From positions 217,821 to 281,820 of the forward strand of contig DAYL01000029.1 in assembly GCA_002508705.1 (NCBI GenBank): a DNA stretch of 64,000 nucleotides. Direction: 5' to 3'. Positions within the stretch are counted from its first letter, which is position 1, and the number at the start of each line of letters is the position of its first letter. Both the position numbers and the translations under genes were made by a program. Shown in pieces: positions 41,372 to 58,198 of the stretch. The notes beneath the pieces are model-generated. The model ran no database searches. It saw only the letters and a list, made by a program, of their open reading frames with translations, and was not told the origin of the DNA. This DNA is from Methanoculleus sp. UBA374 (lineage in GTDB: Archaea > Halobacteriota > Methanomicrobia > Methanomicrobiales > Methanoculleaceae).

Positions 41372-42340
41372 GTGATCTGTTCTTCCGTGAACGGGGCCCG
41401 GTGCTCGTTCCTCTCTTTTCCGGGAGGGGTGACGGAGCGTCCCCGTCGGACGCGGCGTCGTCCCGGGTGCACCGTTCATCACCGCCGGTCTCAAAACGGA
41501 GAGACCGGTCTTACCCTTTCGGTGTCTCATCATGGGAAGGCGGAAGAAGGGGCGGTACGAGGCGAGGTCCTCCGGTTTCACGCGGGAGGCACCGGGGCCG
41601 GGCGTGCATCCTGGGAGAAACAGCAAGGGGCGGGGCGAGGACGGCACCCCCGCTCGCCCCTTCCCGGGGTATGGCACGTTGCCCCGGGGTGGCTCCGTTT
41701 GATCCAGGAATTGCAGGTGCCCGGAGATGTTACCTTGGCGAAGAGGTTTTTTGGATCTCATTATCTGTGATGCACCACTGAGAGGTGACATCATACTAGT
41801 AGTTTAAGTTAAAGCATTTAACTTTAACTGTTTGTATATTTATTGTGATTTACATGCGGGGCGGGATCGGGTAGATTCGAGAGCCCCGATCCGACCGCTG
41901 CATCGCTAGGTGCGGCGGGTGCCCCCCTCTCCCGGCTGCCTCCCTCCGGATAAGGCGCGGTTCGGTTCAGGCCGATCTTTCCTCTACTGCGGCGGGGTCC
42001 TGTCGATTCGAAGAGAAAAAACGATCCGGGGCGTTTTCCCGCGGTGCAGGCATCCGGTTCCGGACTCTCCGGGAGATCCCGGGCCTCCGCTCCGGTAGTT
42101 GCGGCCCGGGGATTTTGTCGGGTTCGAGGAGGTACGACACTATCTCGGACTTTAACCATACGCCTGGCGGACAGTACCCCAGGATGGACGTGAGGGTATT
42201 TCGGCTGCACCCTGTTGTCAATATAATTTATTTAACTTGATCAATAAGTAAACAAAATAATATTGATTTATATACGTTGGATGCACACCCATGCATATCT
42301 CCAGGGCTTCTCTTACCCCGGGGAATACAGAGGTGATTTG
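41372..42340. other. Gene-free region before the first pilin pair
   Basis: Nearly 1 kb with no supported gene. GC-rich first part with two strong inverted repeats: CCGGTCTC...GAGACCGG near 41487-41514 and GGGGCGGGGCGAGG...CTCGCCCC near 41629-41666. A perfect AAGTTAAA-GCA-TTTAACTT palindrome lies at 41806-41824. The last 120 nt are AT-rich with a TATA-like box near 42265, serving the pilin genes. Confidence 0.45.
41806..41824. promoter_or_regulatory. Perfect palindrome AAGTTAAA-GCA-TTTAACTT
   Basis: Eight-base arms with a 3-nt centre in an AT-rich patch without a close gene start. A similar half (TATTTAACTT) occurs near 42230 upstream of the pilin gene. Possible regulator site; purpose unknown. 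Confidence 0.3.
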
Positions 42341-43285
42341 ATGAAAAATGGAACAACCATTAAACGAAGGGATGATGCGGTTTCACCGGTCATCGGCGTC
42401 ATGCTGATGCTGGTGGTAACTATCATTATCGCGGCCGTGGTGAGCGGGTTTGCGGGCGGTCTGGTGACCTCGCAGGAGCCCGCCCCGTCGGCGAGCTTTG
42501 ATGTCAGCCTGACGGATGATAGTATCGACCTCACAGTACGGTCGATCTCCGAGGAGGTCTCCTCCAAAGACATCGCGATTGTTCTTTCGAAAACTGGGCA
42601 GATGCGAAAACTGGTGCCGGGAACATCAACAGTACCGTTCGGATTTAACATCGTAGAACGGCCTGTAAAGGGCGAGGACGGTACAATCAACGGAACAGGT
42701 TTCCACGACAACGAAAACGTTACGATCGCTAGTAATAACTCCAAAATATCAGGAAATTATGCAGCAAATGCAAGCAATTCGATACAGTGGTTTGGAAATT
42801 ATACCCTGAAAACCGGCTCAAGAATGAGCGCCTCTACTCATGCATTTGTAGATGTTCTTGGGGTACCGCTTCCTGCCGGTTTCAGTAAACTTTCATACAC
42901 AAAAAGCGAGTTTCTCGATCTAACCGATGACCAGTGGAAGGAAGTATTTGGCGAGACCGTGACTGCAGGTGGGGGAGATAAAAACAATACTGCTGTCCTT
43001 TCAATCAAATCGGGGCAGAAGATTACAGATAAGAGTCTTGGTGAGTTCCTAGCAGGAAAAGGGTTTGCAACCGAGAAGAATGGCGTATATGAAGCAGCGC
43101 AGCAATTCTGGGTAGAAGCCACTGATACTAAATGGAAGTTCGGACAGACGATCGTGTACAACAGCGACGGCGATGGTAATGGAGGTATCACCGTATCTCC
43201 CGGTGACCGCGTCACCGTGACGATTGTCCATACCCCGTCGGGCCAGAGCATGTTTACGAAAACCGTTACGGTGAAGGAGGCATAA
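42341..43285 (+). CDS. Archaeal type IV pilin, long type (pair 1)
   Basis: 314-residue pilin. The N-terminus RRDDAVSPVIGVMLMLVVTIIIAAVVSGFAGG is the archaeal pilin signal and assembly helix (named by position, residues 6-38). ATG 42341 follows GAGGTGA closely. The body is a beta-rich outer domain ending in GDRVTVTIVHTPSGQSMFTKTVTVKE, which matches the ends of the three other long pilins in the window. It should be processed by a prepilin peptidase and assembled into a surface filament. The short partner starts 2 nt downstream. Confidence 0.9.
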   Translation: MKNGTTIKRRDDAVSPVIGVMLMLVVTIIIAAVVSGFAGGLVTSQEPAPSASFDVSLTDDSIDLTVRSISEEVSSKDIAIVLSKTGQMRKLVPGTSTVPFGFNIVERPVKGEDGTINGTGFHDNENVTIASNNSKISGNYAANASNSIQWFGNYTLKTGSRMSASTHAFVDVLGVPLPAGFSKLSYTKSEFLDLTDDQWKEVFGETVTAGGGDKNNTAVLSIKSGQKITDKSLGEFLAGKGFATEKNGVYEAAQQFWVEATDTKWKFGQTIVYNSDGDGNGGITVSPGDRVTVTIVHTPSGQSMFTKTVTVKEA

Positions 43286-43287
43286 CG

Positions 43288-43776
43288 ATGAATGCGAGAG
43301 AAGAATCACGGGATGCAGCGGTATCGCCGGTCATCGGCATCATGCTGATGCTCGTCGTAACCATCATCATCGCCGCGGTAGTCTCCTCCTTTGCGGGAGG
43401 GCTGGGTACGACAAAAGATACCACACCGACGGTCACCTTCAATGCAGACCTGAGTGTGGCGGACGGTCTTACCATAACGTGTCTCGGCGCCACTCCCGGC
43501 AAGAACGTGAATTTCGACGTCTGTGTCGGCGACAGCAACTACTACAGAGTTGGAATGGGCAGCACGTCTACATTTACCCCTGGAACAAGTCTTCTCTATC
43601 CTGCAAAGAAACTTACGCAGGGATTTACCGATGCGTTTGGGGAATTTGACGGGTATGAAGGAACCGGGATGTATGTGCCGAATCCGAGCTTTATCGGAAA
43701 GACCTACGCTATCCAGTTGATTGATGGGGATTCCGGCACCACCATCGGGAAGGCATACGCCGTTCTCACGGCATAA
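43288..43776 (+). CDS. Archaeal type IV pilin, short type (pair 1)
   Basis: 162 residues: SRDAAVSPVIGIMLMLVVTIIIAAV signal/helix, then a small beta domain with FNADLSVADGLTITCLGATPG, which corresponds to FSISDGMTISHAGGD in the other short pilins, and an end IGKTYAIQLIDGDSGTTIGKAYAVL. GGAGG stands 7 nt before the ATG. It is the most divergent of the four short pilins, so pair 1 is not a recent copy of the array at 52-57 kb. A T-run at about 43797 may terminate transcription. Confidence 0.88.
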   Translation: MNAREESRDAAVSPVIGIMLMLVVTIIIAAVVSSFAGGLGTTKDTTPTVTFNADLSVADGLTITCLGATPGKNVNFDVCVGDSNYYRVGMGSTSTFTPGTSLLYPAKKLTQGFTDAFGEFDGYEGTGMYVPNPSFIGKTYAIQLIDGDSGTTIGKAYAVLTA

Positions 43777-44069
43777 CTACTCAACTACCAACCCAACCTT
43801 TTTTTGGGATGCACGCCCCCGCCTCTCAAGCAGCGACCACGGCATACGTTCGCTGTCCTAGCGTTCCCCTGAGACTGCCAGGGAAGCGCCCTTGTCGGGA
43901 GAGAACTGCAGAGCCGTGCAACAGAGGATCACCCTCAGATCAGCCGGAAATACCCTGATAACCGGAACAGGTTGAATTTTCCGGCGACCTCCCATGCCGC
44001 CCTTCATTTGTGAACTTTCTCATTGTCAACGCACATTAAATAATTTTACTTTACAAATCCTTTTTGTTA

Positions 44070-45248
44070 ATGAAAATTGTATACGTTGATGTAATCGAAG
44101 ATCCATACCATTCTACCATGGTAAGAGAGAAACGACGCTACAGTTGCAGGCCACCGTTCCGCAGGATGATGATGATCGCCTTCCTGTACAGCTTCCTCAT
44201 CACGTCTACTGTGTCCGCAATGGAGTATGTTCTCAACGCCGCCTCCATCGAACAGTTCAAAGGCGGCATCCGCTACGATGGAGAGGACGAACTCATCATC
44301 GAGATCGAGGATGACGTCACTATCTCCAGCAACTGCAATGTCGGCATCGAATCTACGGCTCCGGTAACGATCAGAAGTCCGGCGGGCAGAACGCTCACCA
44401 TCATCGTGGACAGCGATGAAGAGTTCCTCTACGGGATCAAGGCCCCTTCCATCACAATCGAGAGCGGACGCATCGATATAACCGTCCACGGCGAGAACAG
44501 CAGCGGCAGAAGCAATGCCTTCGGAATCTGTGCGGAGTCGGGCAACGTCACGATCTCCGGCGGATCGGTATTCACGACCGTCGAGACCGCAAGCCACAAG
44601 AACAAAGGGATCTACGCCCTACGCTTCATCAACATCTCCGGCGGCCTCGTAAACACCTACCAGCGCGGCGGCAGCAACACCTTTGGCCTCGACGGCGGCA
44701 ATGTGGAGACCGAAAGCACAGACGACGGCGTCATCATCTCCGGCGGACAGGTTGTCGTAAACTCGAGCGGGGCCGCGGCCAGAAACTACGGCATCGACTC
44801 CAAGTTCGGGACCGTGAAGATCTCCGGCGACGCCGTCGTTTTCATTCGCGAAGATGAGAGCGGCAGAGCGGACAACTTTGCATACAACAAAAACGTCACG
44901 ACGATCTCCGGCGGAAACGCGGTGGTGTTCGCATCCGTTGGAGGGCATTACATCCTCCGCGAAGACGCGATCCTCACGCAGAATGCAACGCTGCTCCCCG
45001 GCGGGACGTTCGAGATCCCGGCCGGCCGGACACTTGGGCTCTCCGGAGAAGCGTATCTGGCGCAGCCTGAAGGTGCGCCGCTCCTCTTCGGCGAAGGCTA
45101 CGGTGCGTTCGAGTATGCCGGGTCCGTCCCTGATGGGAACGGGACGGTGATCTACGCGGGCGAAGAGCCGACACAGCAGGCTTCCGCTCCGATGGCCGGA
45201 TTGCTTGCCGGCCTGGGCGCTGCGGTCCTTCTTAGAAGGAAACAATAA
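44070..45248 (+). CDS. Secreted beta-helix-like protein with ISGG repeats and C-terminal sorting tail
   Basis: About 392 residues. The N-terminus is long and basic before a hydrophobic segment (MMMIAFLYSFLITSTVSA). The body repeats a strand-turn unit with ISGG (GNVTISGGSVFTTV, INISGGLVNTY, VIISGGQVVVNS, TTISGGNAVVF), like the parallel beta-helix of Cthe_2159-type carbohydrate-binding proteins. It ends with SAPMAGLLAGLGAAVLLRRKQ-type tail (linker, hydrophobic, basic) close to that of the binding protein at 38.3-39.6 kb. ATG 44070 lies about 30 nt after an AT-rich TATA-like block; starts at 44118 or near 44166 are possible. Confidence 0.72.
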   Translation: MKIVYVDVIEDPYHSTMVREKRRYSCRPPFRRMMMIAFLYSFLITSTVSAMEYVLNAASIEQFKGGIRYDGEDELIIEIEDDVTISSNCNVGIESTAPVTIRSPAGRTLTIIVDSDEEFLYGIKAPSITIESGRIDITVHGENSSGRSNAFGICAESGNVTISGGSVFTTVETASHKNKGIYALRFINISGGLVNTYQRGGSNTFGLDGGNVETESTDDGVIISGGQVVVNSSGAAARNYGIDSKFGTVKISGDAVVFIREDESGRADNFAYNKNVTTISGGNAVVFASVGGHYILREDAILTQNATLLPGGTFEIPAGRTLGLSGEAYLAQPEGAPLLFGEGYGAFEYAGSVPDGNGTVIYAGEEPTQQASAPMAGLLAGLGAAVLLRRKQ

Positions 45249-45328
45249 CACCTTTTTTCAAACCTATATAGATGTCTGGAGGTCCGAAGCCCTTCCGGAG
45301 AATATGAAGTGTTCAGGATCGGATACGG

Positions 45329-45544
45329 ATGGTGGATGAATGTGAAGCCTTTGAGAAGATAGAAGCGCAGGTCAGGGCGCTGACGAGATATACCACCGTC
45401 CGGAGCATCCCGAAGGGGTTCTCGTTCGAACGGAAGTATCTCCTCTCCTGCGGTGATGCGAGACGGTACCTGCTCAGGATCGCCTCGCTCTCCGACCCGG
45501 AGGTCCTGCCGCATAAGCAGGCGGAGTTCGAGGCCATCAGGCGG
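45329..45544 (+). pseudogene. Aminoglycoside phosphotransferase-like gene, N-terminal fragment
   Basis: 72 codons encoding the N-lobe start of an APH-family kinase (TVRSIPKGFSFERKYLL, RYLLRIASLSDPEVLPHKQAEFEAIRRF). It breaks off exactly where a 105-bp IS21-like inverted-repeat remnant begins. The C-terminal part of what looks like the same gene lies 4.2 kb away at 49719-50459. The intact enzyme would phosphorylate a small hydroxylated compound. Confidence 0.75.
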
Positions 45545-45649
45545 TTTCAACGTCGGTTTACTTTCCCCCACTCGTGTCGGAATGCTGTTTCGATGAAATC
45601 GGGGAATCTTACACCGACGCAAGTGGGGAATCTTATCCCGACGTTGACA
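45545..45649. mobile_element. IS21-like terminal repeat remnant
   Basis: A 105-bp imperfect palindrome. The outer 12 bases read T(T)TCAACGTCGG and, reversed, TGTCAACGTCGG. Inside are repeats of a CCCCACT-CG-(T)GTCGG unit and of GGGGAATCTTA-CCGACG. Short outer repeats with internal GTGGGGAAT/CCGACG copies are typical of the two ends of IS21-family elements, here joined without the istA and istB genes between. No target duplication is visible. It may be a deletion product or a non-autonomous element. Confidence 0.55.
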
Positions 45650-45851
45650 TCCGTTGAAGTCGTTGTACGAGTATCCATTACAATGGGAGTTCATACGTTA
45701 GGGGTTGCACACCACCAGGTCGCAGTGCAAGTGAGCACGACCGGCCCTCTTCGCATTAAGATAGATATATAATTATTAAACCCATTCACATCATTTAATA
45801 GACAGAATGTTCGGTTCACCCGCTTAGATAGCCGGATCAGGTCGAGACGAA

Positions 45852-46841
45852 ATGAACTCTGACGATATTGAAACGCTGTTTCAGGCCTTTGTTACGAAAA
45901 ATGAGGCGTTATTTCATCAAGCAGCTCAGAGCATAATTGAGCATGAAGAACAATTGAACCACCACCTCGTAGCGGCGAAACTAAGGACAATTATCAATAA
46001 TCAGTCGGTACACCAAACTACCCTCCCATATCGCACGCTGCCCATCCCCCGCGATAATGAAAAAGGATTCCAGTTACTGGAAGTTAAGCGACCATTTAGT
46101 GATTGGTCGGATCTGATTGTTTCCACAGAGTTAGAAGAAAAACTTCGGGAGATCCCGCTTGAGATTAAGAATCGAGATTTATTATCCAACTATGGATTAA
46201 AACCCAGAAGCAAACTGTTATTTTATGGACCTCCGGGAACGGGGAAAACACTCTGTGCAAAAGTTCTATGCTCAGCCATTGGCTACCCGCTGATAGTCGT
46301 AAAATTTGAATCGGTTGTTTCTTCATTTTTGGGTGAGACCGCCGCCAACATAAGAAAAATTTTCGATTATATAGATAAAGGGAAGTGGGTTGTACTTTTT
46401 GATGAGTTTGATATTATCGGCAAAAAACGTGACGACCCAAGTGAGCATGGAGAGATTAAACGCGTAGTCAATAATTTCATGTTAATGCTTGAAGATTATC
46501 AAGGCGACAGTGTACTCATTGCCGCTACAAATCATCCCCAATTATTAGATAAGGGGATCTGGCGGCGGTTTGACGATATTATCCAGTTTGAATTGCCGGA
46601 TAAACAGTTAAGGGCACGCTTATACGAGAAGAAACTGAGTGTAATCCCTGTCGATCCTGTAGTAGCATATGATATATTTGCAGACAACAGCAAGGGTTTC
46701 TCGGGTGCTGATATTGAACAAGTGACCATTCGAGCAATGAAAAAAGCACTGCTGAGTAAAAGGAAAAGGGTTTCAAAGGAAGACATTGAAGAAGCAATAC
46801 TAAGGCAGAAAGAAATTGTTTCAGTTCAAGAGAAGGTATAG
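45852..46841 (+). CDS. AAA+ ATPase, IetA-like
   Basis: 329-residue AAA+ ATPase. Walker A GPPGTGKT (from about residue 126), Walker B VVLFDEFDI (about 180-188), sensor-1 AATNHP and arginine finger WRRFDD are all present. The N-terminal 110 residues are helical and specific. The gene is clearly AT-richer than its surroundings and uses A/T-ending codons, which suggests acquisition. It precedes the protease gene by 3 nt. A small AAA+ ATPase followed by a subtilisin-like protease is the make-up of the IetA/IetS system first described on Agrobacterium plasmids and later listed among antiphage modules; the assignment is by architecture. Confidence 0.88.
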   Translation: MNSDDIETLFQAFVTKNEALFHQAAQSIIEHEEQLNHHLVAAKLRTIINNQSVHQTTLPYRTLPIPRDNEKGFQLLEVKRPFSDWSDLIVSTELEEKLREIPLEIKNRDLLSNYGLKPRSKLLFYGPPGTGKTLCAKVLCSAIGYPLIVVKFESVVSSFLGETAANIRKIFDYIDKGKWVVLFDEFDIIGKKRDDPSEHGEIKRVVNNFMLMLEDYQGDSVLIAATNHPQLLDKGIWRRFDDIIQFELPDKQLRARLYEKKLSVIPVDPVVAYDIFADNSKGFSGADIEQVTIRAMKKALLSKRKRVSKEDIEEAILRQKEIVSVQEKV

Positions 46842-46844
46842 TTC

Positions 46845-49238
46845 ATGCCAGAACATCTTCGGTTACCATTGCATGAGGGGGAGCGTACGCTGGCGAGAAG
46901 GAGAGGAGGGGGACCTCCCCGTCCTGATCGTGAGGAAAAAGAGGGTTTTGCTGAAGTTCAGGTTTATAATTTAAATGAGATGCAGAACGAGCATCAGAAG
47001 AGGAAGGCACAGTTCTCAGAGTATTTTGATCCTAACCTGATATTTAGAATTGAGCTCCGATCTGAGATCAGTGAGGAGGAACTGAGCGAGTTCCTGAATC
47101 GTTGTGATATCCAGTACATCTCCCCCTCTCCTGCAAAAGATGGTGGTCTCCGTTACAGAGTGTCTCTGGCGGAGAAGGGAGATTTGGAAAAAATAACCGA
47201 AAAACTTGCTCGATATGGTCAAGAATCTAAGAACAAGACTTTTTTTAACGTTGTAGAGTCGTTTGAACCGATTCCCCCAGAGGATAAGATAGGCGAGAGG
47301 TTGGCCGAGAGGCCGCTGCTCGATGACGAGGTTGCGTATCTCGATGTCGAACTCTGGAGGATGGAAACCCCCCGGCTAAAGGATGTTCTCAAGGGAATTG
47401 AGAAGTTACTCAATGAAAAAGGCGGGGAGGTCACCGATCATATCATCACACAAAGTTTCTGCCTCATGCGGGTGAAGATAGGCGAGGAAATGCTCGATGA
47501 GTTGCTGTCCTTCCCCGAGGTGAGCTGCGTCGATCGACCGCCCCGCCCCACCTCCTTTCGTCCAGGCGAACTCCGCGTATCGTTGAGTGAGGTCGATACC
47601 GGCTCTCCTCCCGACCCGGGAGATCCGGCGATCGTTGTCCTTGACAGCGGTATATTATCGGGCCATCCTCTCCTCAAAAATGGTGTTGGAGATGCCATAA
47701 GTCTGTTTTCAGGATATGACGGGACAGATGACGTGGGTCATGGCACCATGGTTGCAGGTGTCGCGCTGTATGGTGATATCAAAGAATGCGCCGACATGAG
47801 GTGTTTTCACCCGCCTGTGTGGATACTGTCAGCGAAGGTGATGCATGGGGTAAAAGACCCGGAGACTGGAGTTATAGTTGCAAGCTATGATGAGGAGCAT
47901 CTTCTCGAAAATCAAATTCTCCAGGCGCTCTGGTCATTCACAGGACGATACGATAACGTGCGTGTAGTGAACATCTCGTTTGGCGATCCCGCGTTGTGTA
48001 TATCCGGGGTAAAGCAGCAATCGATGCTGGCATCGTTTATCGACGAGCTGGCTCATGAGCACGGTCTTATGTTCGTTATTGCAACCGGGAATAACGATGA
48101 GATGGATTTCCCGGACAAATACCCTCATTACCTCTACGAAGATGGCGAGAGGTGCAGGATTGTAGATCCGGCATCGTCTGTATACGCCCTGACCGTCGGA
48201 TCTATAACACAGGATTACGTCTCAGATAAGGCCGAGGCGATTCTTACTCCGCACCAAGGCTATCCATCTCCGTTCACGCGAGCAGGACCCGGTTTGAACG
48301 GGATGATCAAGCCAGAACTCGTTGAAGCGGGAGGAATGCGGCCGTACAACGTGCAAACACCTTATCACATGGAGGATGCACAGACAGGTATCTTTGTGGT
48401 GAACCCACGGTGGATGGAAGAGAGTAGTCTGCTCACTACGGAATGTGGGACCAGCCTTTCTGCTCCGAAAGTCGCCAACTACCTGGCCCGGTTGTGCAAG
48501 AGATATCCCGGCTATACCTCAAACACGATCAAGGCGTTCTTACTCGCTTCTGCCCGTATCCCCGGTGATCGGCCGGAATCTCTGGACATTAATGTGCAGG
48601 GGGTTTCGACAAGAGAAGCTGAACCGATCTACAACATCTATGGCTTTGGTCAACCAGATCTCGCTTATGCTGAAGATTCCAATTCGAATAACGTGCTCCT
48701 TTTTGCAGAAAATACGATAAAAGCCAGGGGTGTTCATTATTACTACTTTTACCTCCCCGGTACGTTCGTCGATATGCAAGGAGAGCGCGAGATCTCTGTA
48801 ACACTCGTATACAACCCGCCTGTCAGGAGAACACGTATGGAGTATATGGGGACACGGATGGAATTTTCTTTGTATAAGAATACGGATATCGAGGTTATCG
48901 CCGATCGCTCTTCCGAGGATGTGTTCTCAGAGCCGGCGAATGACGAAGAGCCGGAAGGTAACGGGGATAGCGGTAAGATTCCAGAAATAGTGCTGTACCC
49001 TAAAACGACTCTCCGCTCAAAAAGCATCCACCAAAAGGGCACACGAGTCTATACGAGCGCACCGGGGATTGACGTAACAAAACCCCTGGTTCTTGAGGTC
49101 TTGTGTCGGGGAAAATGGGTAGACGACGAGGAGTTCAGGCAAAGCTACTCAGTAGTGGTCACTCTTCGCCACTCCGCGCGCATCGATCTGTATAATCAGG
49201 TAAGGGAGAGAGTTGCACCAAGGGTCCGGATACGATAA
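46845..49238 (+). CDS. Subtilisin-like S8 protease, IetS-like
   Basis: 797-residue protease of the S8 family without a signal peptide, so it acts inside the cell. The triad is intact: Asp267 in IVVLDSGI, His299 in GHGTMVAG, Ser537 in GTSLSAP. Residues 1-255 form an N-terminal region that may inhibit or recognise substrate; about 190 beta-rich residues follow the catalytic domain. It is translated right after the ATPase (AAGGT before the ATG). In IetAS the protease is thought to be the effector held or activated by the ATPase. Codon use is closer to the host than that of the ATPase gene. Confidence 0.88.
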   Translation: MPEHLRLPLHEGERTLARRRGGGPPRPDREEKEGFAEVQVYNLNEMQNEHQKRKAQFSEYFDPNLIFRIELRSEISEEELSEFLNRCDIQYISPSPAKDGGLRYRVSLAEKGDLEKITEKLARYGQESKNKTFFNVVESFEPIPPEDKIGERLAERPLLDDEVAYLDVELWRMETPRLKDVLKGIEKLLNEKGGEVTDHIITQSFCLMRVKIGEEMLDELLSFPEVSCVDRPPRPTSFRPGELRVSLSEVDTGSPPDPGDPAIVVLDSGILSGHPLLKNGVGDAISLFSGYDGTDDVGHGTMVAGVALYGDIKECADMRCFHPPVWILSAKVMHGVKDPETGVIVASYDEEHLLENQILQALWSFTGRYDNVRVVNISFGDPALCISGVKQQSMLASFIDELAHEHGLMFVIATGNNDEMDFPDKYPHYLYEDGERCRIVDPASSVYALTVGSITQDYVSDKAEAILTPHQGYPSPFTRAGPGLNGMIKPELVEAGGMRPYNVQTPYHMEDAQTGIFVVNPRWMEESSLLTTECGTSLSAPKVANYLARLCKRYPGYTSNTIKAFLLASARIPGDRPESLDINVQGVSTREAEPIYNIYGFGQPDLAYAEDSNSNNVLLFAENTIKARGVHYYYFYLPGTFVDMQGEREISVTLVYNPPVRRTRMEYMGTRMEFSLYKNTDIEVIADRSSEDVFSEPANDEEPEGNGDSGKIPEIVLYPKTTLRSKSIHQKGTRVYTSAPGIDVTKPLVLEVLCRGKWVDDEEFRQSYSVVVTLRHSARIDLYNQVRERVAPRVRIR

Positions 49239-49718
49239 GGTTGATCTCGATGAAGCGGCGGGAGGCAGACCGTTATCGCCTCTCGCTGGTACAATTTTAT
49301 TCAGAAAGCCGGCGTCACCATCATAGACTCTTCACGCGGTAGTGCTCCAGCATATAACTGATAATCAATCTCGGCTGATTCGACTGAAGATTCTCATTAT
49401 CGGGCTTCGATAAAACCCTATTCCGGTTTTCGCTCTTCCTTGACGCGGTTGGTGCCGGATCCGGCCTGTCCTTGAGTTCGACCAACTCTTTCAAGCATAT
49501 CCTTATGCCGTGGACCGTGGCGGCTTGCGGGGAGAGGAAGGCCCCCCTGTCTCGCGCAAACGTCTCTCCCCCTCATCAACCCCACCGCACCCGCGCTTTC
49601 AGCACTCCTCCCCCGCCCCTCTAGGGGCGGGAGCAGTCTATCCTCTGGAAAACCGTGCCCTGATTGCATGCAGGCGGGAACACCAGGATAGAATCTCAGA
49701 TGACCAGTTGTTTCGTAG
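49239..49718. other. Right flank of the inserted module
   Basis: 480 nt between the protease gene and the C-terminal APH fragment. It holds a leftward frame of about 80 codons (49321 to about 49570) without a start codon, encoding VHGIRICLKELVELKD and LSKPDNENLQSNQPRLIISYMLEHY; it looks like the C-terminal end of a lost protein that I do not recognise. A perfect CCCGCCCC-TCTA-GGGGCGGG hairpin lies at 49612-49631, of the sort seen at ends of IS200/IS605 elements or as a terminator. Confidence 0.45.
49612..49631. other. GC hairpin at the island's right flank
   Basis: Perfect 8-bp arms CCCGCCCC/GGGGCGGG with a TCTA loop. It could be the subterminal hairpin of an IS200/IS605-type element or a transcription-end hairpin; there is no T-run next to it. 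Confidence 0.5.
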
Positions 49719-50459
49719 GGCACTACCCTCGTCCCCGGCGCACATGCGTTCGGCACTTCCGACGATGGGAGCCTGTGCTTCATGCTGCTGGATTTCATGG
49801 AGGGGACCGGCGGGGAGACTGCACTGGACGGGCTGGCAGCGCAGGACCAGTACCGGCTCGGCGTGCTGGCCGGGAAGGAGCTGAAGAGGCTGCACGCGAT
49901 GCCGGCCCCGGCAGGTTTACCGGACTGGTCCGAAGCCGTCAGCGCAAAATATGCCCGCAAGGCTGCCGCGTTCGATGCACAGGGCCTCAACCTTCCGGGA
50001 ATCGACCGGACGCACCTCTCCCGGTATATTCGGGAGAACATCTCCTGCATCCATGGCGCCGGCAGGACGTTCCTCCACGGCGATTACCATCCGGCAAACC
50101 TGATCGTTCGCGACGGGCGGCTGAACGGGATCATCGATTTTAATCGGTATGACTGGGGCGATCCCGTCCATGACTTTCTGAAGACGGCTTTCTTCACCCG
50201 CGCTGTCAGTATTCCGTTCTCCGTGGGCCAGATCGACGGATATCACGAAGGGTCGGTCCCCTCCCGGTTCTGGAAGAAGTATGCGGTGTATTGCGCCCTG
50301 ACGATCGTTCCCGACCTCCTCTGGGCGCACGATTACGCCCTTAAATGCGGTTCGCTGGACGAGATCGGGCGATCTGAAACGAGAATACGGAGGGTCTATG
50401 CCGACCACGAGGGCTTTGCGACGGATGTTCCCTGTTGGTACCGGGACTACGATGGATGA
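49719..50459 (+). pseudogene. Aminoglycoside phosphotransferase-like gene, C-terminal fragment
   Basis: The frame is open after a TAG at 49716 and encodes FGTSDDGSLCFMLLDFMEGTGG, the hinge of APH kinases, then the catalytic HGDYHPANLIV and metal-binding IIDFNRYDWGDPVHDF. An ATG at 49782 could start a 225-residue protein lacking the N-lobe and its ATP lysine, so activity is unlikely. With 45329-45544 it makes up one gene split by the 4.2-kb insert; a few codons of the hinge are missing and the two halves are not in one simple frame at the break. Confidence 0.8.
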
Positions 50460-50738
50460 GAGGACGTTCCGGCTGGAGAGGCGGGCCGGCGTGACTTTGG
50501 TCTTTTTGCTTCTGCTTTTTTCCGTGCAACGCCGGAAAGTTCAGGGTGTCGGTGCGGGTCGCCGGCCCGGGAACGCTATGGTCGCACGCTGCCCCCCATC
50601 TTTTTATGTGAGGGCCATGTGTGATACCCCTCAATGGTTTTCTTAATTTTAGATCTGAAACGCCGACATTCATATGATAAAGCGCCGGCGGCTGCAGGTT
50701 TGCCCGGGCGGTTGTAGAAAAACCCCACCCGAGATCGC
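50460..50738. other. Intergenic region between convergent APH fragment and thioredoxin-CcdA gene
   Basis: 280 nt with no supported gene. The middle is AT-rich; no clear hairpin or T-run is seen. Confidence 0.4.
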
Positions 50739-52153: not shown

Positions 52154-52819
52154 TTACGCCGTGATCTTCACCTCGGTCGTCGAGATGACGTTCCCGGCCC
52201 TGTCGCCTACCTGAAGGGTGAAGACCTTGCCGACGTTGTCGGGGTTCCGGAAACAGAGGTACCATAAGGCCTTGCAGCTGCTGGTGCATCCTGGCTGAGG
52301 ATACGTCGTGGGATAGTTTTCCCAATCCCACCAGCCACAGCCGGATCCACCTTGCCTACAATGGGTATCTCCCGTAATTAACGCCGAGGCTGTCCCGGGT
52401 TGGAAAAGACTGCAGGTAGAGTTGTACGGGGTGACGTAGAGCGTATCCCCAGGATTGAAGGAAGATTTGCCGCCGATGCTGCTGGTCGAAAACACCGCCC
52501 GCCCGTCCTTATCGGTGATAAGGTCCAGGTTCAACTGCTGTGTGGTGACTTTTTGTGCATTCGGCCCGAAGCCCGGCCCGTTCCAGGTGGTGAAGACGAG
52601 GTCGTTGAGGGGAATTGCCTCCCCTCCCGCGTGACTGATCGTCATGCCGTCGGATACGCTGAACGTGGCCGTAATCTTTGCCTGCGGCGTCTTGGACTGG
52701 CTTTCGGTGAGACTCCCCGCAAAGCCGGAGACGATTGTCGCTATGATGATGGTGACGACCAGCATCAGCATGATGCCGACCACCGGTGAAACCGCATCAT
52801 TGTTCCATTTACTCATCAT
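52154..52819 (-). CDS. Archaeal type IV pilin, short type (pair 4)
   Basis: 221 residues. Start WNNDAVSPVVGIMLMLVVTIIIATIV; body with TATFSVSDGMTISHAGGEAIPL, shared with the other short pilins, then a region with six or more cysteines (THCRQGGSGCGWWDW, GCTSSCKALWYLC) and the family end VGKVFTLQVGDRAGNVIS. ATG 52819 is placed after AAGGTG; the frame starts two codons earlier. The extra cysteines suggest disulfides. The long partner lies 9 nt upstream. Confidence 0.88.
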   Translation of the reverse strand: MMSKWNNDAVSPVVGIMLMLVVTIIIATIVSGFAGSLTESQSKTPQAKITATFSVSDGMTISHAGGEAIPLNDLVFTTWNGPGFGPNAQKVTTQQLNLDLITDKDGRAVFSTSSIGGKSSFNPGDTLYVTPYNSTCSLFQPGTASALITGDTHCRQGGSGCGWWDWENYPTTYPQPGCTSSCKALWYLCFRNPDNVGKVFTLQVGDRAGNVISTTEVKITA

Positions 52820-52828
52820 GACCACACC

Positions 52829-53854
52829 TTACGATTCCTTCACCACGACATCCTTATCAAAGATCGTCTTCCCGCTCGGGATATGAACAACCCTGACGTT
52901 CACGATGTCCCCCGCCCGCAGGTTCTCCCACCCGCAGCCGAGCACGGCCTGCATGCCGTCGGCCTGCCCGCCTTCCGCAATAATCTCCGCAGGCGTTGTC
53001 TTGTCGCCCGTGTACACTTGGTACACAGCATTATCCCCATCGGACTGATACTGATACATAAGAACGTGATTCCACGGCCGCGTATTGCTTAGCTGACCGT
53101 AGCCCCCTACGTAATACTCAGTTGTCATGCCATCCTGCTCTGGCAAGCCCGCGGGGATGGGCCAATTATTTCTACATCCTCCAGCGGTATCAGCTATCAT
53201 GACGGTGCCCTGTTCCAGGCTGTAGTTTCCGAAATGAGTCACTGCAAAATACTGCCAGTCAAGCATATGATCTTTGCCCCCCAGGGTACCCTGCCGCGGT
53301 ATAGCTCCCCCCCAACCCCATTCGCTTTCCGTGAGGTTGCCCACTCCCGGCCCGACCCCGTACGGTGCGACGCTCCGGGTGGTCCGCTTGGTGTATGAAT
53401 TGGGGATTCCCGGAAGAATTTCGGCGCCCCCGTGGTAAACCGAGCCAATCGGATATTGGTCTGGATTGACGATGAGGCCGCGGCCGGGCTCCTGCTCTGA
53501 TGACATGGTCATGACATACGTATTCGTCTTCACAGTCGTATCCCACGATGTGACGATCTTGAGGTCTTTTGTCGGGATCGGCTCGCTCACACCGAGAATT
53601 TTTGCAGAAAACCCGCTCCCACGGAACGTACCCGAGTTGATGATTGACACGTCCATGCTGAGGGAAGGAACTTTCTGGCTCCCCTCCCCCCCGACAAGCC
53701 CTCCGGCAAACCCGCTCACAACCGCTGCTATGATGACGGTCACGACGAGCATCAGCATTACGCCGATCACCGGGGATACGGCATCATCGCATCCCCCGGG
53801 AAGAACGGTATCCCCCAAGGGGGGATATGATCCGATTTTTCCTTTAGATTCCAT
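52829..53854 (-). CDS. Archaeal type IV pilin, long type (pair 4)
   Basis: 341 residues, the largest pilin here. The N-terminal leader before DDAVSPVIGVMLMLVV is long (22 residues, with GSYPPLGDTVLPGGC), followed by the assembly helix and a beta-rich domain with PTKDLKIVTSW and the conserved end GDIVNVRVVHIPSGKTIFDKDVVVKE. AAGGA precedes the ATG. It lies 29 nt after the short pilin of pair 3 and 9 nt before its own short partner. Confidence 0.9.
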   Translation of the reverse strand: MESKGKIGSYPPLGDTVLPGGCDDAVSPVIGVMLMLVVTVIIAAVVSGFAGGLVGGEGSQKVPSLSMDVSIINSGTFRGSGFSAKILGVSEPIPTKDLKIVTSWDTTVKTNTYVMTMSSEQEPGRGLIVNPDQYPIGSVYHGGAEILPGIPNSYTKRTTRSVAPYGVGPGVGNLTESEWGWGGAIPRQGTLGGKDHMLDWQYFAVTHFGNYSLEQGTVMIADTAGGCRNNWPIPAGLPEQDGMTTEYYVGGYGQLSNTRPWNHVLMYQYQSDGDNAVYQVYTGDKTTPAEIIAEGGQADGMQAVLGCGWENLRAGDIVNVRVVHIPSGKTIFDKDVVVKES

Positions 53855-53883
53855 GTTATCCTTCCTTTTTCCGAAATGAACGG

Positions 53884-54501
53884 TTATGCGGCAATCAACA
53901 CATTGGACTTTGAGATCAGGTGTCCTGCCGTGTCGCTCACTTCAAGGATGAAACTCTTCCCTATGCTGTCCTGGTTCCTGATGCAGAGCGCCCATGCCGC
54001 GGTTTGCGTGCCCGTATAGGTGTAACCGTCGGAGTCCACGTAGTCCACAAAGTTGGTGGGGGCGACGCCGGGTTGAAGAACGGTGCAGGTGCAGCCCTCG
54101 GGCTCGATCGTGACCGAATCGCCCGGGTTGAACGAGACCATATAGAACGCTCCAAAGGTTGTCTTCATCGGACCCGTGCCTCTCTCTGTACTCACCATTA
54201 TCCGTGACATGTTCAGGGTCTCGGTTGTGTGTTCGAGGTTTGCCCCGAACGTCGGGCCGTCGCGTATCGTAAAGACCAGGTCTTTCGTCGCGAGGGAGTC
54301 CCCGCCCGCGTGGCTGATGGTCATGCCGTCCGATATGCTGAACGTGCCCGTGATCTTCGCCTGCGGCGATTTGGACTGGCCGGTTGCCATGCCTCCTGCA
54401 AACGCGGAGACGATTGCTGCTATGATGATGGTGATGACCAGCATCAGCATGATACCGACGACCGGCGAAACGGCATCGTCGCGGAGTTGTTTCACAGTCA
54501 T
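53884..54501 (-). CDS. Archaeal type IV pilin, short type (pair 3)
   Basis: 205 residues, MTVKQLRDDAVSPVVGIMLMLVITIII start; body with TGTFSISDGMTISHAGGDSLATKDLVF, then GCTCTVLQPG, AWALCIRNQDSIGKSF and a C-terminal strand. The ATG at 54501 follows GGTGACGGAGG and overlaps the stop of its long partner by 4 nt; the frame upstream of it is antisense shadow of the long pilin's end. Two clusters of cysteines could form one disulfide. Confidence 0.88.
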   Translation of the reverse strand: MTVKQLRDDAVSPVVGIMLMLVITIIIAAIVSAFAGGMATGQSKSPQAKITGTFSISDGMTISHAGGDSLATKDLVFTIRDGPTFGANLEHTTETLNMSRIMVSTERGTGPMKTTFGAFYMVSFNPGDSVTIEPEGCTCTVLQPGVAPTNFVDYVDSDGYTYTGTQTAAWALCIRNQDSIGKSFILEVSDTAGHLISKSNVLIAA

Positions 54502-55280
54502 CCCTCCGTCACCGCGACGTCCCTGGTCCAGATCGTCTTTCCGCTGGGGACGTGGATCACCTTCACGGTGACAATATCCCCGGAGCGGAGCTGCTCCCAT
54601 CCATGCCCCAGCACGGCCTGCGCGGGATCGGTATACCGGCGGGGATCTTCGCCCACAACCTCACCGTCATAAGGGTAGGCATAGCGGTTAACGACACCGT
54701 ACCCGTAGGAGTATCCGTTCCCGGTTCCGTCCTGCTTGCTTCCGTACGGCTTTGCGCTCAGGCTCACTCCCGGCGTCAGGGTATAATTGCCGAACTGGCG
54801 TTCGACCGTGAGATACGGTCTTTCCGAACTCTCACTGCTGGCGGTCGCAATCCCGAACCCGTACGGTGCAAAGCTTCGGGCCACACTCGAGCCCGGCGGC
54901 TCCACCACATTGACGTTCGCCACGCCGCCGGCGGAGGCGTTGCCGCCGGTGATGTAGGTCCCGTTCGAAACTTCGCTCAGTTCCTCGTTTGCAGTTCCGC
55001 GGTTGTTCTTCATCTTCGTCCTCCAGGACGTGACGATCCGGAGGTCCTTTGTCGGGATCGCCTCGCTTACCCCGGTAACCGTTGCAGAGAAACCGCTCCC
55101 GGCCCACGTCCCTGTGTTCGTGATCTTCACATCCATCGTGAGGGACGGGGCATTCTTGCTGCCGTCCCCGACAAGCCCTCCGGCAAACCCGCTCACAACC
55201 GCCGCGATGATGATGGTCACGACGAGCATCAGCATCACGCCGATCACCGGTGACACAGCTGTATCGTTCCGGAATTTCAT
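54498..55280 (-). CDS. Archaeal type IV pilin, long type (pair 3)
   Basis: 260 residues. FRNDTAVSPVIGVMLMLVVTIII signal/helix, then TMDVKITNTGTWAGSGFSATVTGVSEAIPTKDLRIVTSW, which parallels the same stretch of pairs 2 and 4 (given by position, about residues 44-82), and the end GDIVTVKVIHVPSGKTIWTRDVAVTEG. The middle, exposed part differs from the paralogues. It follows the short pilin of pair 2 by 53 nt. Confidence 0.9.
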   Translation of the reverse strand: MKFRNDTAVSPVIGVMLMLVVTIIIAAVVSGFAGGLVGDGSKNAPSLTMDVKITNTGTWAGSGFSATVTGVSEAIPTKDLRIVTSWRTKMKNNRGTANEELSEVSNGTYITGGNASAGGVANVNVVEPPGSSVARSFAPYGFGIATASSESSERPYLTVERQFGNYTLTPGVSLSAKPYGSKQDGTGNGYSYGYGVVNRYAYPYDGEVVGEDPRRYTDPAQAVLGHGWEQLRSGDIVTVKVIHVPSGKTIWTRDVAVTEG

Positions 55281-57106: not shown

Positions 57107-58198
57107 TCACTTTCCGTTGGCCAGGATCGTCTCAATCTGTGCGAGTCGCTCCATGATCTCTTCCTGCTGCCTGACCAGCATCCGGAGAACCTCTTCCTGG
57201 GGAGGCACCCCGACATCCTCCGGAATATCGGTATAGATTGACAGATACGGCTCGACGATCTTGTACGCTTCCCGCATCTGCTTCCTGTTGTAGCGGCGGT
57301 AGTGTACGGAGAGCCCTTCGTCATGGCCGATGAATTCATTTGCCAGATTAATCGAGATATGGAGTTTCATGGTGGACTCGGTCCATTTTCTGATGGAATG
57401 ATACGTAATTTTGCTGCGGTTCCCGGCGCTGCACCTGGCATGAACTCCCGCCCGCTTTGCCGCCCGGACAAACCGGTTGGCTGCGGTTCCATAAACGATC
57501 GGAAAAACCCGCCGGTCTTCATACGTTTTCCGGAACCGGATGTTGGTCCGCTTCCGCGACAGGGAGTATAGTTCGTCGCGGACCAGAAGATACCGCCGGA
57601 GATGATCGCCGGCCTCCCGGGAGAAGTAGTAGGTGTGGGCTTTTCCGGATTTCATCCTCTCGCGGGGGATGCGAATCTCCCCGGGATCGCCGAGGACAAT
57701 ATCCTCAGGAACCACGCCGAGAAGCTCGGAGATCCGCATTCCCGAACTTGCGAGAATGACGATCAGTGTTCTGGTAAGGAGGTCGGCATGTTCTGCAATC
57801 TCCCGTATCGTTTCCCGGCTGAGTTCCGCTTCTTCGGTGACAATAACGGTTCGGGGCTGAAGATTTCTGAGAATTTTTTCATCGTTGGGACTCAGGCGGA
57901 TATCGTTGTACAACAGCCATGCTCTCGTATAGTGGAGTTTGAGCCGGATGGTGTTTGGAGAGTTGTGTTTCTCCCGGGTAAGAAAAGCGAGGTAGGAGAC
58001 AAGATCGCCGAACACCTCTCCGGGAGATCGTTTGAGATAATCGGACTGGATCTTGAGAAGGTCGGTATCCGAAGCGTCCGGGGCGGCTGTGATGAAGCGG
58101 AGATAGTCGCGGAGACTTTTTCTGACGGCACTCTGCGTGGCTCTGGATCGATGAAGCAGGGAGAAGGCAAGATGAGTCGTGTGGTTCGTCCGGGTCAT
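57107..58198 (-). CDS. Tyrosine recombinase/integrase
   Basis: 363-residue XerC/D-like recombinase. N-terminal SAM-like core-binding domain (about residues 15-125), catalytic domain with Arg in SSGMRISELLG, Lys in SGKAHTYYF, the HxxR box in YHSIRKW, the GH of FIGHDEG and the nucleophile Tyr in HYRRYN. The C-terminal tail (VRQQEEIMERLAQIETIL) is a coiled coil as in many archaeal integrases. No tRNA target or phage genes are near. It ends 4 nt from the pilin remnant and faces the array, so recombination at pilin genes is conceivable. Confidence 0.92.
   Translation of the reverse strand: MTRTNHTTHLAFSLLHRSRATQSAVRKSLRDYLRFITAAPDASDTDLLKIQSDYLKRSPGEVFGDLVSYLAFLTREKHNSPNTIRLKLHYTRAWLLYNDIRLSPNDEKILRNLQPRTVIVTEEAELSRETIREIAEHADLLTRTLIVILASSGMRISELLGVVPEDIVLGDPGEIRIPRERMKSGKAHTYYFSREAGDHLRRYLLVRDELYSLSRKRTNIRFRKTYEDRRVFPIVYGTAANRFVRAAKRAGVHARCSAGNRSKITYHSIRKWTESTMKLHISINLANEFIGHDEGLSVHYRRYNRKQMREAYKIVEPYLSIYTDIPEDVGVPPQEEVLRMLVRQQEEIMERLAQIETILANGK

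Follow-up and report, generated by a model that had tools for sequence, protein, structure and literature searches.

A 64,000-nucleotide stretch of DNA from Methanoculleus sp. UBA374 (contig DAYL01000029.1, positions 217,821 to 281,820; hereafter the window) contains two adjacent genes, for an ATPase and a protease, that lie within another, broken gene. The questions raised by this locus are whether the pair represents IetAS, the module described from the Agrobacterium plasmid pTiC58, and what such a module would do in a methane-producing archaeon. The upstream gene, ietA (45852..46841, + strand), encodes a classic AAA ATPase of 329 amino acids. It is separated in the list of open reading frames (ORFs) by 3 nt (46842-46844) from ietS (46845..49238, + strand), which encodes an intracellular S8 subtilase of 797 amino acids with the catalytic triad Asp267-His299-Ser537; neither ORF contains an internal stop. 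The PADLOC IetA profile (PDLC02196) matched residues 5-323 of the ATPase (1.7e-89), and the IetS profile (PDLC02198) aligned residues 19-797 of the protease with positions 19-786 of its 795 (1.4e-103), the runner-up IetS models scoring 1.7e-52 and weaker. The best NCBIfam matches are likewise the models for IetA (NF042959, 4.1e-69) and IetS (NF042956). These data show that the pair is a genuine member of IetAS, an ATPase-protease toxin/defence module familiar from bacteria, and that it is intact in this archaeon. An earlier, sequence-only reading of the window had described two genes 3 nt apart, a full set of ATPase motifs, a signal-less S8 protease with an intact triad and, overall, the make-up of IetAS; its coordinates, protein lengths and residues are borne out, and both profiles match in the right order.

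IetA displays an AAA domain (PF00004, 1.7e-30) and the associated lid (PF17862, 3.7e-07). The motifs GPPGTGKT at residue 126, LFDE at 182, NHPQ at 227 and RRF at 238 provide Walker A/B, Asn227 and Arg238/Arg239, and the aromatic pore loop, FLG at 159-161, follows an aromatic-Leu-Gly pattern kept in 43 of 44 IetA rows. Helices occupy residues 3-49 at the N-terminal end, near which the highest 15-residue Kyte-Doolittle mean is 0.41. The nearest solved relatives by sequence are CDC48/p97, and the fold of the model resembles the 26S Rpt subunits and PAN.

The catalytic subtilase domain of IetS (residues 256-611, 47610..48677, + strand; PF00082, 5.7e-32) contains the motifs DSG at 267, GHGT at 298 (His299), GN at 415 and GTS at 535 (Ser537); by analogy, Asn416 presumably occupies the oxyanion position. 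The Asp-His-Ser triad is present in all 46 aligned IetS rows. The N-terminus has no hydrophobic stretch, the highest 15-residue Kyte-Doolittle mean in its vicinity being −0.77. It begins with a short tail motif, HLxLP (residues 4-8, 46854..46868, + strand), of which the histidine is strongly kept: of the 46 aligned rows, 31 are ungapped at position 4 and 30 of these have His. In 26 rows His4, Leu5 and Leu7 are invariant. In the AlphaFold2 model the tail precedes an N-terminal region (47037..47534, + strand) of two predicted β-α-β-β-α-β units (residues 65-141 and 164-230), which may be propeptide-like, judged by the order of its elements only. The top Foldseek rows for the model include the pro-forms 3afg and 3whi, and VIA-align, whose rows cover mainly residues 249-620, lists no fold for residues 1-248, a simple absence. 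The modelled C-terminal β domain (residues 616-776, 48690..49172, + strand; AlphaFold2) aligns with the C-terminal portions of Tk-SP, KP-43 and SubHal. Most of the IetS relatives listed are annotated in the database with PF27210 and PF27160, newer Pfam domains that were unreported by the Pfam copy used; perhaps they are newly curated parts of the IetS family.

The two genes form one inherited unit, because ietA precedes the IetS loci and the tree distances of the two proteins agree. The 80 loci kept from the genome collection, in which further relatives exist, were divided by bit score, a split of our own, into 62 IetS loci (at least 93 bits) and 18 loci of other S8 proteases (at most 77 bits). 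Among the matches listed, 57 of the 62 IetS loci and none of the 18 others have ietA as the immediate upstream gene, in the same orientation. Four of the five IetS loci that lack it start at a contig end and the fifth (L037) is a decayed remnant; L065, in the other group, likewise begins at the end of its contig and is possibly an IetS cut short, and L079 gave no match. Across 43 loci the pairwise IetA and IetS distances correlate with r 0.942, compared with a maximum of 0.328 in 2000 shuffles, and the trees share 23 of 40 splits. Both genes are under purifying selection: the ratio of nonsynonymous to synonymous divergence (dN/dS) is 0.077 for IetA and 0.178 for IetS against the copy in Methanoculleus sp. 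FWC-SCC3 (L001), values that reject a chance pair of ORFs, and 0.097 and 0.118, respectively, against a second relative, L002.

The module is sporadic in its occurrence. Of 40 genomes from the family to which Methanoculleus sp. FWC-SCC3 belongs, one carries full-length IetS and two more carry fragments; in the order, a full-length copy is present in 6 of 199. An IetS match of any kind was obtained in 23 of the 199, and those outside the six full-length copies and the G021 and G025 fragments are partial and mostly confined to the catalytic domain. The competing outcome named in the sequence-only reading, a housekeeping ATPase-protease pair with conserved synteny in every close relative, is ruled out by this rarity. 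IetA also misses the family cut-offs of the housekeeping ATPases, scoring 124.8 of the 500 bits set for PAN and 106.6 of 600 for FtsH, which together with the patchy occurrence rules out such an identity. Of 7998 candidates scored in a protein search, 286 are IetS relatives at E values up to 1e-3; the best 120 of the 286 are 38-95% identical and, where named, derive from methanogens, other archaea and bacteria. The hope that an archaeal example would extend the reach of the system is thus only partly realized: the archaeal pair is genuine, but archaeal copies have already been deposited, from Methanocalculus, Methanofollis, Methanospirillum, Methanophagales, Aenigmarchaeota and others, and the PADLOC profile finds the pair at once, so that archaeal IetAS is not new to databases.

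An IetS tree, made by a quick method from 46 of 47 chosen loci, groups the window protein with L001, L002 and L003, all from methanogens (support 100). Since the 12 archaeal rows require five changes of domain label, at least four of which are forced by well-supported branches, archaeal and bacterial IetS interleave and the module has been exchanged repeatedly between the domains; the placement of the long branches L032, L123 and L025 is unsure. A virus-borne module was rejected, as neither IMG/VR nor a phage collection holds a close viral copy: one weak relative was found among 44 matching IMG/VR stretches, in a scan seeded by two short patterns of this branch, and seven weak records among 50,697 in the phage collection.

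How the pair reached its present position is revealed by a relative (G005) in which an APH-family (PF01636) phosphotransferase frame of 371 codons is whole and stop-free. The window retains a 5′ fragment of this gene (45329..45542, + strand), whose frame continues into the insert as ORF 45329-45772, and a 3′ fragment (49728..50459, + strand). Because the flanks (42248-45542, 80.7% identity; 49728-50373, 89.3%) align to adjoining parts of the G005 sequence, with ~20 nt between them, the insert comprises 45543-49727, ~4.2 kb, as the sequence-only reading had supposed in placing the module inside another gene. A clean target-site duplication was not found beside the insert, where the ~20 nt of G005 sequence have no counterpart. 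The GC content is 41.1% in ietA and 50.6% in ietS, compared with an average of 57.9% for the 38 window ORFs of at least 200 amino acids and 56.9% for the window, and the third-position GC of ietA (40%) is the lowest of the 38, in agreement with its reported AT-richness.

Repeats form both borders of the insert. The left border (45543..45660) is an imperfect inverted repeat that folds into a long hairpin (−47.3 kcal/mol, z −4.0). The initial 76 nt of this border recur at the same site in G023 (94.7%), and short matches are found in 6 of the 40 family genomes. The right border (49338..49727) is a ~390-bp repeat resembling a miniature inverted-repeat transposable element, with imperfect terminal inverted repeats (49338-49366 and 49699-49727, 72% complementary). 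G023, G007 and G031 contain full-length or nearly full-length copies, and 35 of the 40 family genomes give a match of some kind, many to a short internal segment, positions 49580-49637 being matched most often. Between the borders, a core block (45693..49270, BLASTN) is shared at 93.8% DNA identity with L001, where the surrounding genes differ, and for the most part with L002 (84.0%), whose contig nearly ends at the core; this block is probably the travelling unit. In G023 (L093 3574-5322) the APH site contains the left border, another gene pair, 82 nt of the right repeat in inverted orientation and the remainder of the APH gene. The G023 genes (281 and 87 amino acids) have no Pfam match and weak PADLOC matches at most. 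As G023 holds another pair there, the APH site has taken different cargo in different lineages. A decayed IetAS is found in G021 (L094 11046-11638), where a piece of the leader and a 105-codon piece of ietS align and the remainder of the pair does not.

Several other features were observed around the insert. Genes with similar starts flank it on both sides (42263-43776 and 52154-54600); the one that was scanned, 42263-43285, has an archaeal type IV pilin N-terminal domain (Pilin_N, 1.6e-16). A phage-integrase family recombinase (PF00589, 4.3e-12; 57107-58198) lies ~8 kb downstream, with no link to the insert shown. ARAGORN placed a 99-nt tRNA-Ser at 44952-45050, inside the opposite-strand ORF 44064-45248, which may be a false call.

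Upstream of ietA, a 71-nt block (45752..45822) with an AT-rich, TATA-like core is identical in the window, L001 and L002, and is probably the promoter or leader of the gene. It is unchanged although the shared DNA overall is 93.8% (L001) and 84.0% (L002) identical, and is thus more strongly constrained than the coding sequence. The leader (45760-45870) folds no better than shuffled sequences (z 0.97), and Rfam at its gathering threshold identified no family in 45200-50500. When L002 (270-3785) is aligned with window positions 45693-49208, identity lies between 88.5% and 94% throughout the part that ends with ietA, steps from 93.5% to 76% at the junction with ietS, and thereafter is 73.5-84.5%; synonymous divergence is 0.29 for ietA and 0.93 for ietS. 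This step suggests either a swapped ietS allele or a chimaeric assembly, L002 being a single 3.8-kb metagenome contig.

The genes surrounding archaeal IetAS loci provide some indication of its role. In L001 the neighbours include a DUF1828 candidate (PDC-M24B, 3.7e-23), a Type IIG restriction-modification enzyme (3.4e-237), an HKD-Snf2 helicase (7.4e-43) and an EVE domain. A Type III methylase (1.3e-106) and a Type II methylase (3e-291) lie directly upstream of IetAS in L009 and L015, respectively, and L010 has a HamB-like helicase (4.6e-46) at ~4 kb. Three of ten chosen large neighbour ORFs gave convincing defence matches. The 95 ORFs around ten archaeal IetAS loci matched 160 PADLOC families, compared with eight in 50 control ORFs (95 of 96 and 50 of 56 ORFs kept); this excess is suggestive only, as one protein can match many families, the comparison carries no per-protein count and the controls come from three genomes of one family. 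In G183 (L150 710-19286), IetAS is nested in a bacteriophage exclusion (BREX) operon between pglX and pglZ, the order on one strand being brxC (PDB 9zdx, 1.7e-12), pglX (8e-164), ietA, ietS, a dGTPase-like gene (1.4e-73), two genes without a PADLOC match, pglZ (1.2e-33) and brxL (PDB 8emc, 1.6e-165); brxA and brxB were not identified in this operon. The main text of a recent BREX survey (PMC12839542) contains none of the words 'IetAS', 'subtilisin' or 'subtilase'.

What, then, might IetAS do? Two homologous pairs, SgiT/SgiA of SGI1 (PMC5006074) and T133/A132 of mycoplasma (PMC8562856), consist of a toxin and a neutralizing ATPase, and a review table places ietAS among the systems linked to functional phage proteins, among them DNA polymerase, SSB (single-stranded DNA-binding protein), helicase and terminase (PMC10286901). 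We consider it probable, by analogy with these systems, that IetS is a latent cytoplasmic subtilisin-like protease restrained by IetA, a co-encoded AAA motor that is presumably a hexamer. A functional IetA would keep IetS in check; should the ATPase be lost, depleted or diverted, for instance by a virus as it replicates or when the element disappears, the protease would be unleashed on proteins of the cell, and perhaps of the virus, and growth would stop. In this methanogen the module entered the APH-family gene as a cassette, and selection maintains it. We infer that the archaeal proteins have the same roles as their bacterial homologues, that the trigger is antiviral and that IetS is the direct target of the pore-loop motor.

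Several observations weigh against this reading. Both proteins miss the NCBIfam equivalog cut-offs, IetA scoring 233.5 of 510 bits (NF042959) and IetS 116.6 of 900 (NF042956), and because the scores are so far under these thresholds the pair is a divergent, related branch of IetAS, not a close orthologue of the named proteins. A self-inhibitory propeptide in IetS lacks sequence support, as none of 26 members matched Pfam I9, and the idea of a propeptide repeat was rejected since the two N-terminal units are unlike by profile (hhalign probability 0.8%). The sequence-only reading had asked for the defence or mobile context of such pairs; some relatives do adjoin defence genes, but PADLOC detected no defence system near the pair among the 46 other window ORFs (46 of 50 kept), which matched eight families, mostly of generic ATPase type, LmuB (1.1e-28) being the best named besides mad3. 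Six of the ten chosen neighbour ORFs have no PADLOC match at 1e-15 and one has a generic match only, and the neighbours in G046 look metabolic from our reading of their ORF starts. The BREX nesting is one clear case, because a tblastn search with G183 PglX and PglZ against the 62 IetS and eight further loci found only L145 itself and, weakly, L018 (7.8e-12 and 3.5e-13). Finally, no functional test of an archaeal IetAS was found in the accessible part of the openly licensed literature.

The same evidence bears on other explanations. IetAS could be purely an addiction cassette, a toxin-antitoxin pair that plays no antiviral part itself and serves to stabilize the inserted element or its surroundings. 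Judging by a reference title cited in PMC5006074, the homologue that founded the family was reported in connection with the stability and incompatibility of pTiC58, and SgiAT for maintenance of a genomic island (PMC5006074); the window pair stands alone with mobile repeats, and a match to IetS at 1e-5 was obtained in 399 plasmid records and spans at least 80% of the protein in 41, the best plasmid-borne relatives among the matches listed being 29-31% identical over 83-87% of IetS. Pure addiction is nevertheless unlikely in our view, given that some relatives lie inside or beside defence operons, that no gene for replication or transfer is obvious in the ORF list of the insert, of which the larger ORFs were scanned, and that SgiAT expressed from its own promoter gave no post-segregational killing (PMC5006074). 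The conserved pore loop and motor residues of IetA, and the resemblance of its model to proteasomal ATPases and PAN, would fit an ATP-dependent protease in which IetA unfolds specific, possibly viral, substrates and feeds them to IetS without restraining it, as in the PAN-proteasome. Such feeding is distinctly improbable: in the tested homologues the ATPase suppresses the toxicity of the protease (PMC8562856, PMC5006074), and the catalytic domain of IetS resembles ordinary open subtilases and not a chamber. That the pair is a silent relic of a past insertion might be supposed from its position in a broken gene among repeats and from the decayed copy in G021, but the intact ORFs, the low dN/dS values against both relatives and the unchanged 71-nt block make this very hard to credit.

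A more speculative reading may also be offered. In methanogens IetAS might serve as a plug-in cassette that keeps ietA and its leader, exchanges ietS alleles at the gene junction, and slots into cargo-exchange sites (APH, G023) or BREX operons (G183), there acting as a second, proteolytic layer triggered once the first defence has failed; we regard this scenario in its entirety as doubtful. Three parts of this work merit specialist attention: the relative nested in BREX, the cargo-exchange site and the possible swap of ietS. The nested copy makes a response of IetAS to BREX failure directly testable. IetAS has anti-phage models in PADLOC and NCBIfam, and the openly licensed literature settles the toxin side better than the trigger. 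By title, none of the openly licensed papers naming IetAS, among the records accessible and with some chance word matches, concerns archaeal defence; the main text of an archaeal immunity survey (PMC12988326) has no word beginning 'Iet', and wider searches of openly licensed papers added nothing on archaeal IetAS among the matches listed. A well-supported archaeal branch with the same active residues, sometimes flanked by restriction-modification genes or nested in BREX, joins the plasmid-stability and defence readings and supplies distant homologues for structural work.

Comparison with known systems places the pair as follows. PAN, the proteasomal ATPases and CDC48 are the closest solved relatives of IetA by sequence (CDC48/p97) and fold (Rpt subunits, PAN), whereas IetA is accessory and falls well short of the family cut-offs for PAN and FtsH. 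Tk-SP of Thermococcus, KP-43 and SubHal are extracellular enzymes. Their structures (3afg, 1wmd, 5fax) match the catalytic and C-terminal β domains of IetS, which differs in lacking a signal peptide, in its long N-terminal region and in the ATPase partner with which it is inherited. SgiAT of SGI1 and mycoplasma TA132/133 share the two-gene design of a neutralizing ATPase and a toxic protease; they carry experimental toxin/antitoxin evidence, whereas the window pair is known from its sequence. IetAS of Agrobacterium pTiC58, compared here through the PADLOC IetA and IetS profiles and not through the pTiC58 sequence itself, differs in that the window pair is archaeal and falls under the NCBIfam equivalog cut-offs, while the gene order, the combination of an AAA ATPase with an S8 protease and the near full-length profile matches are common to both.

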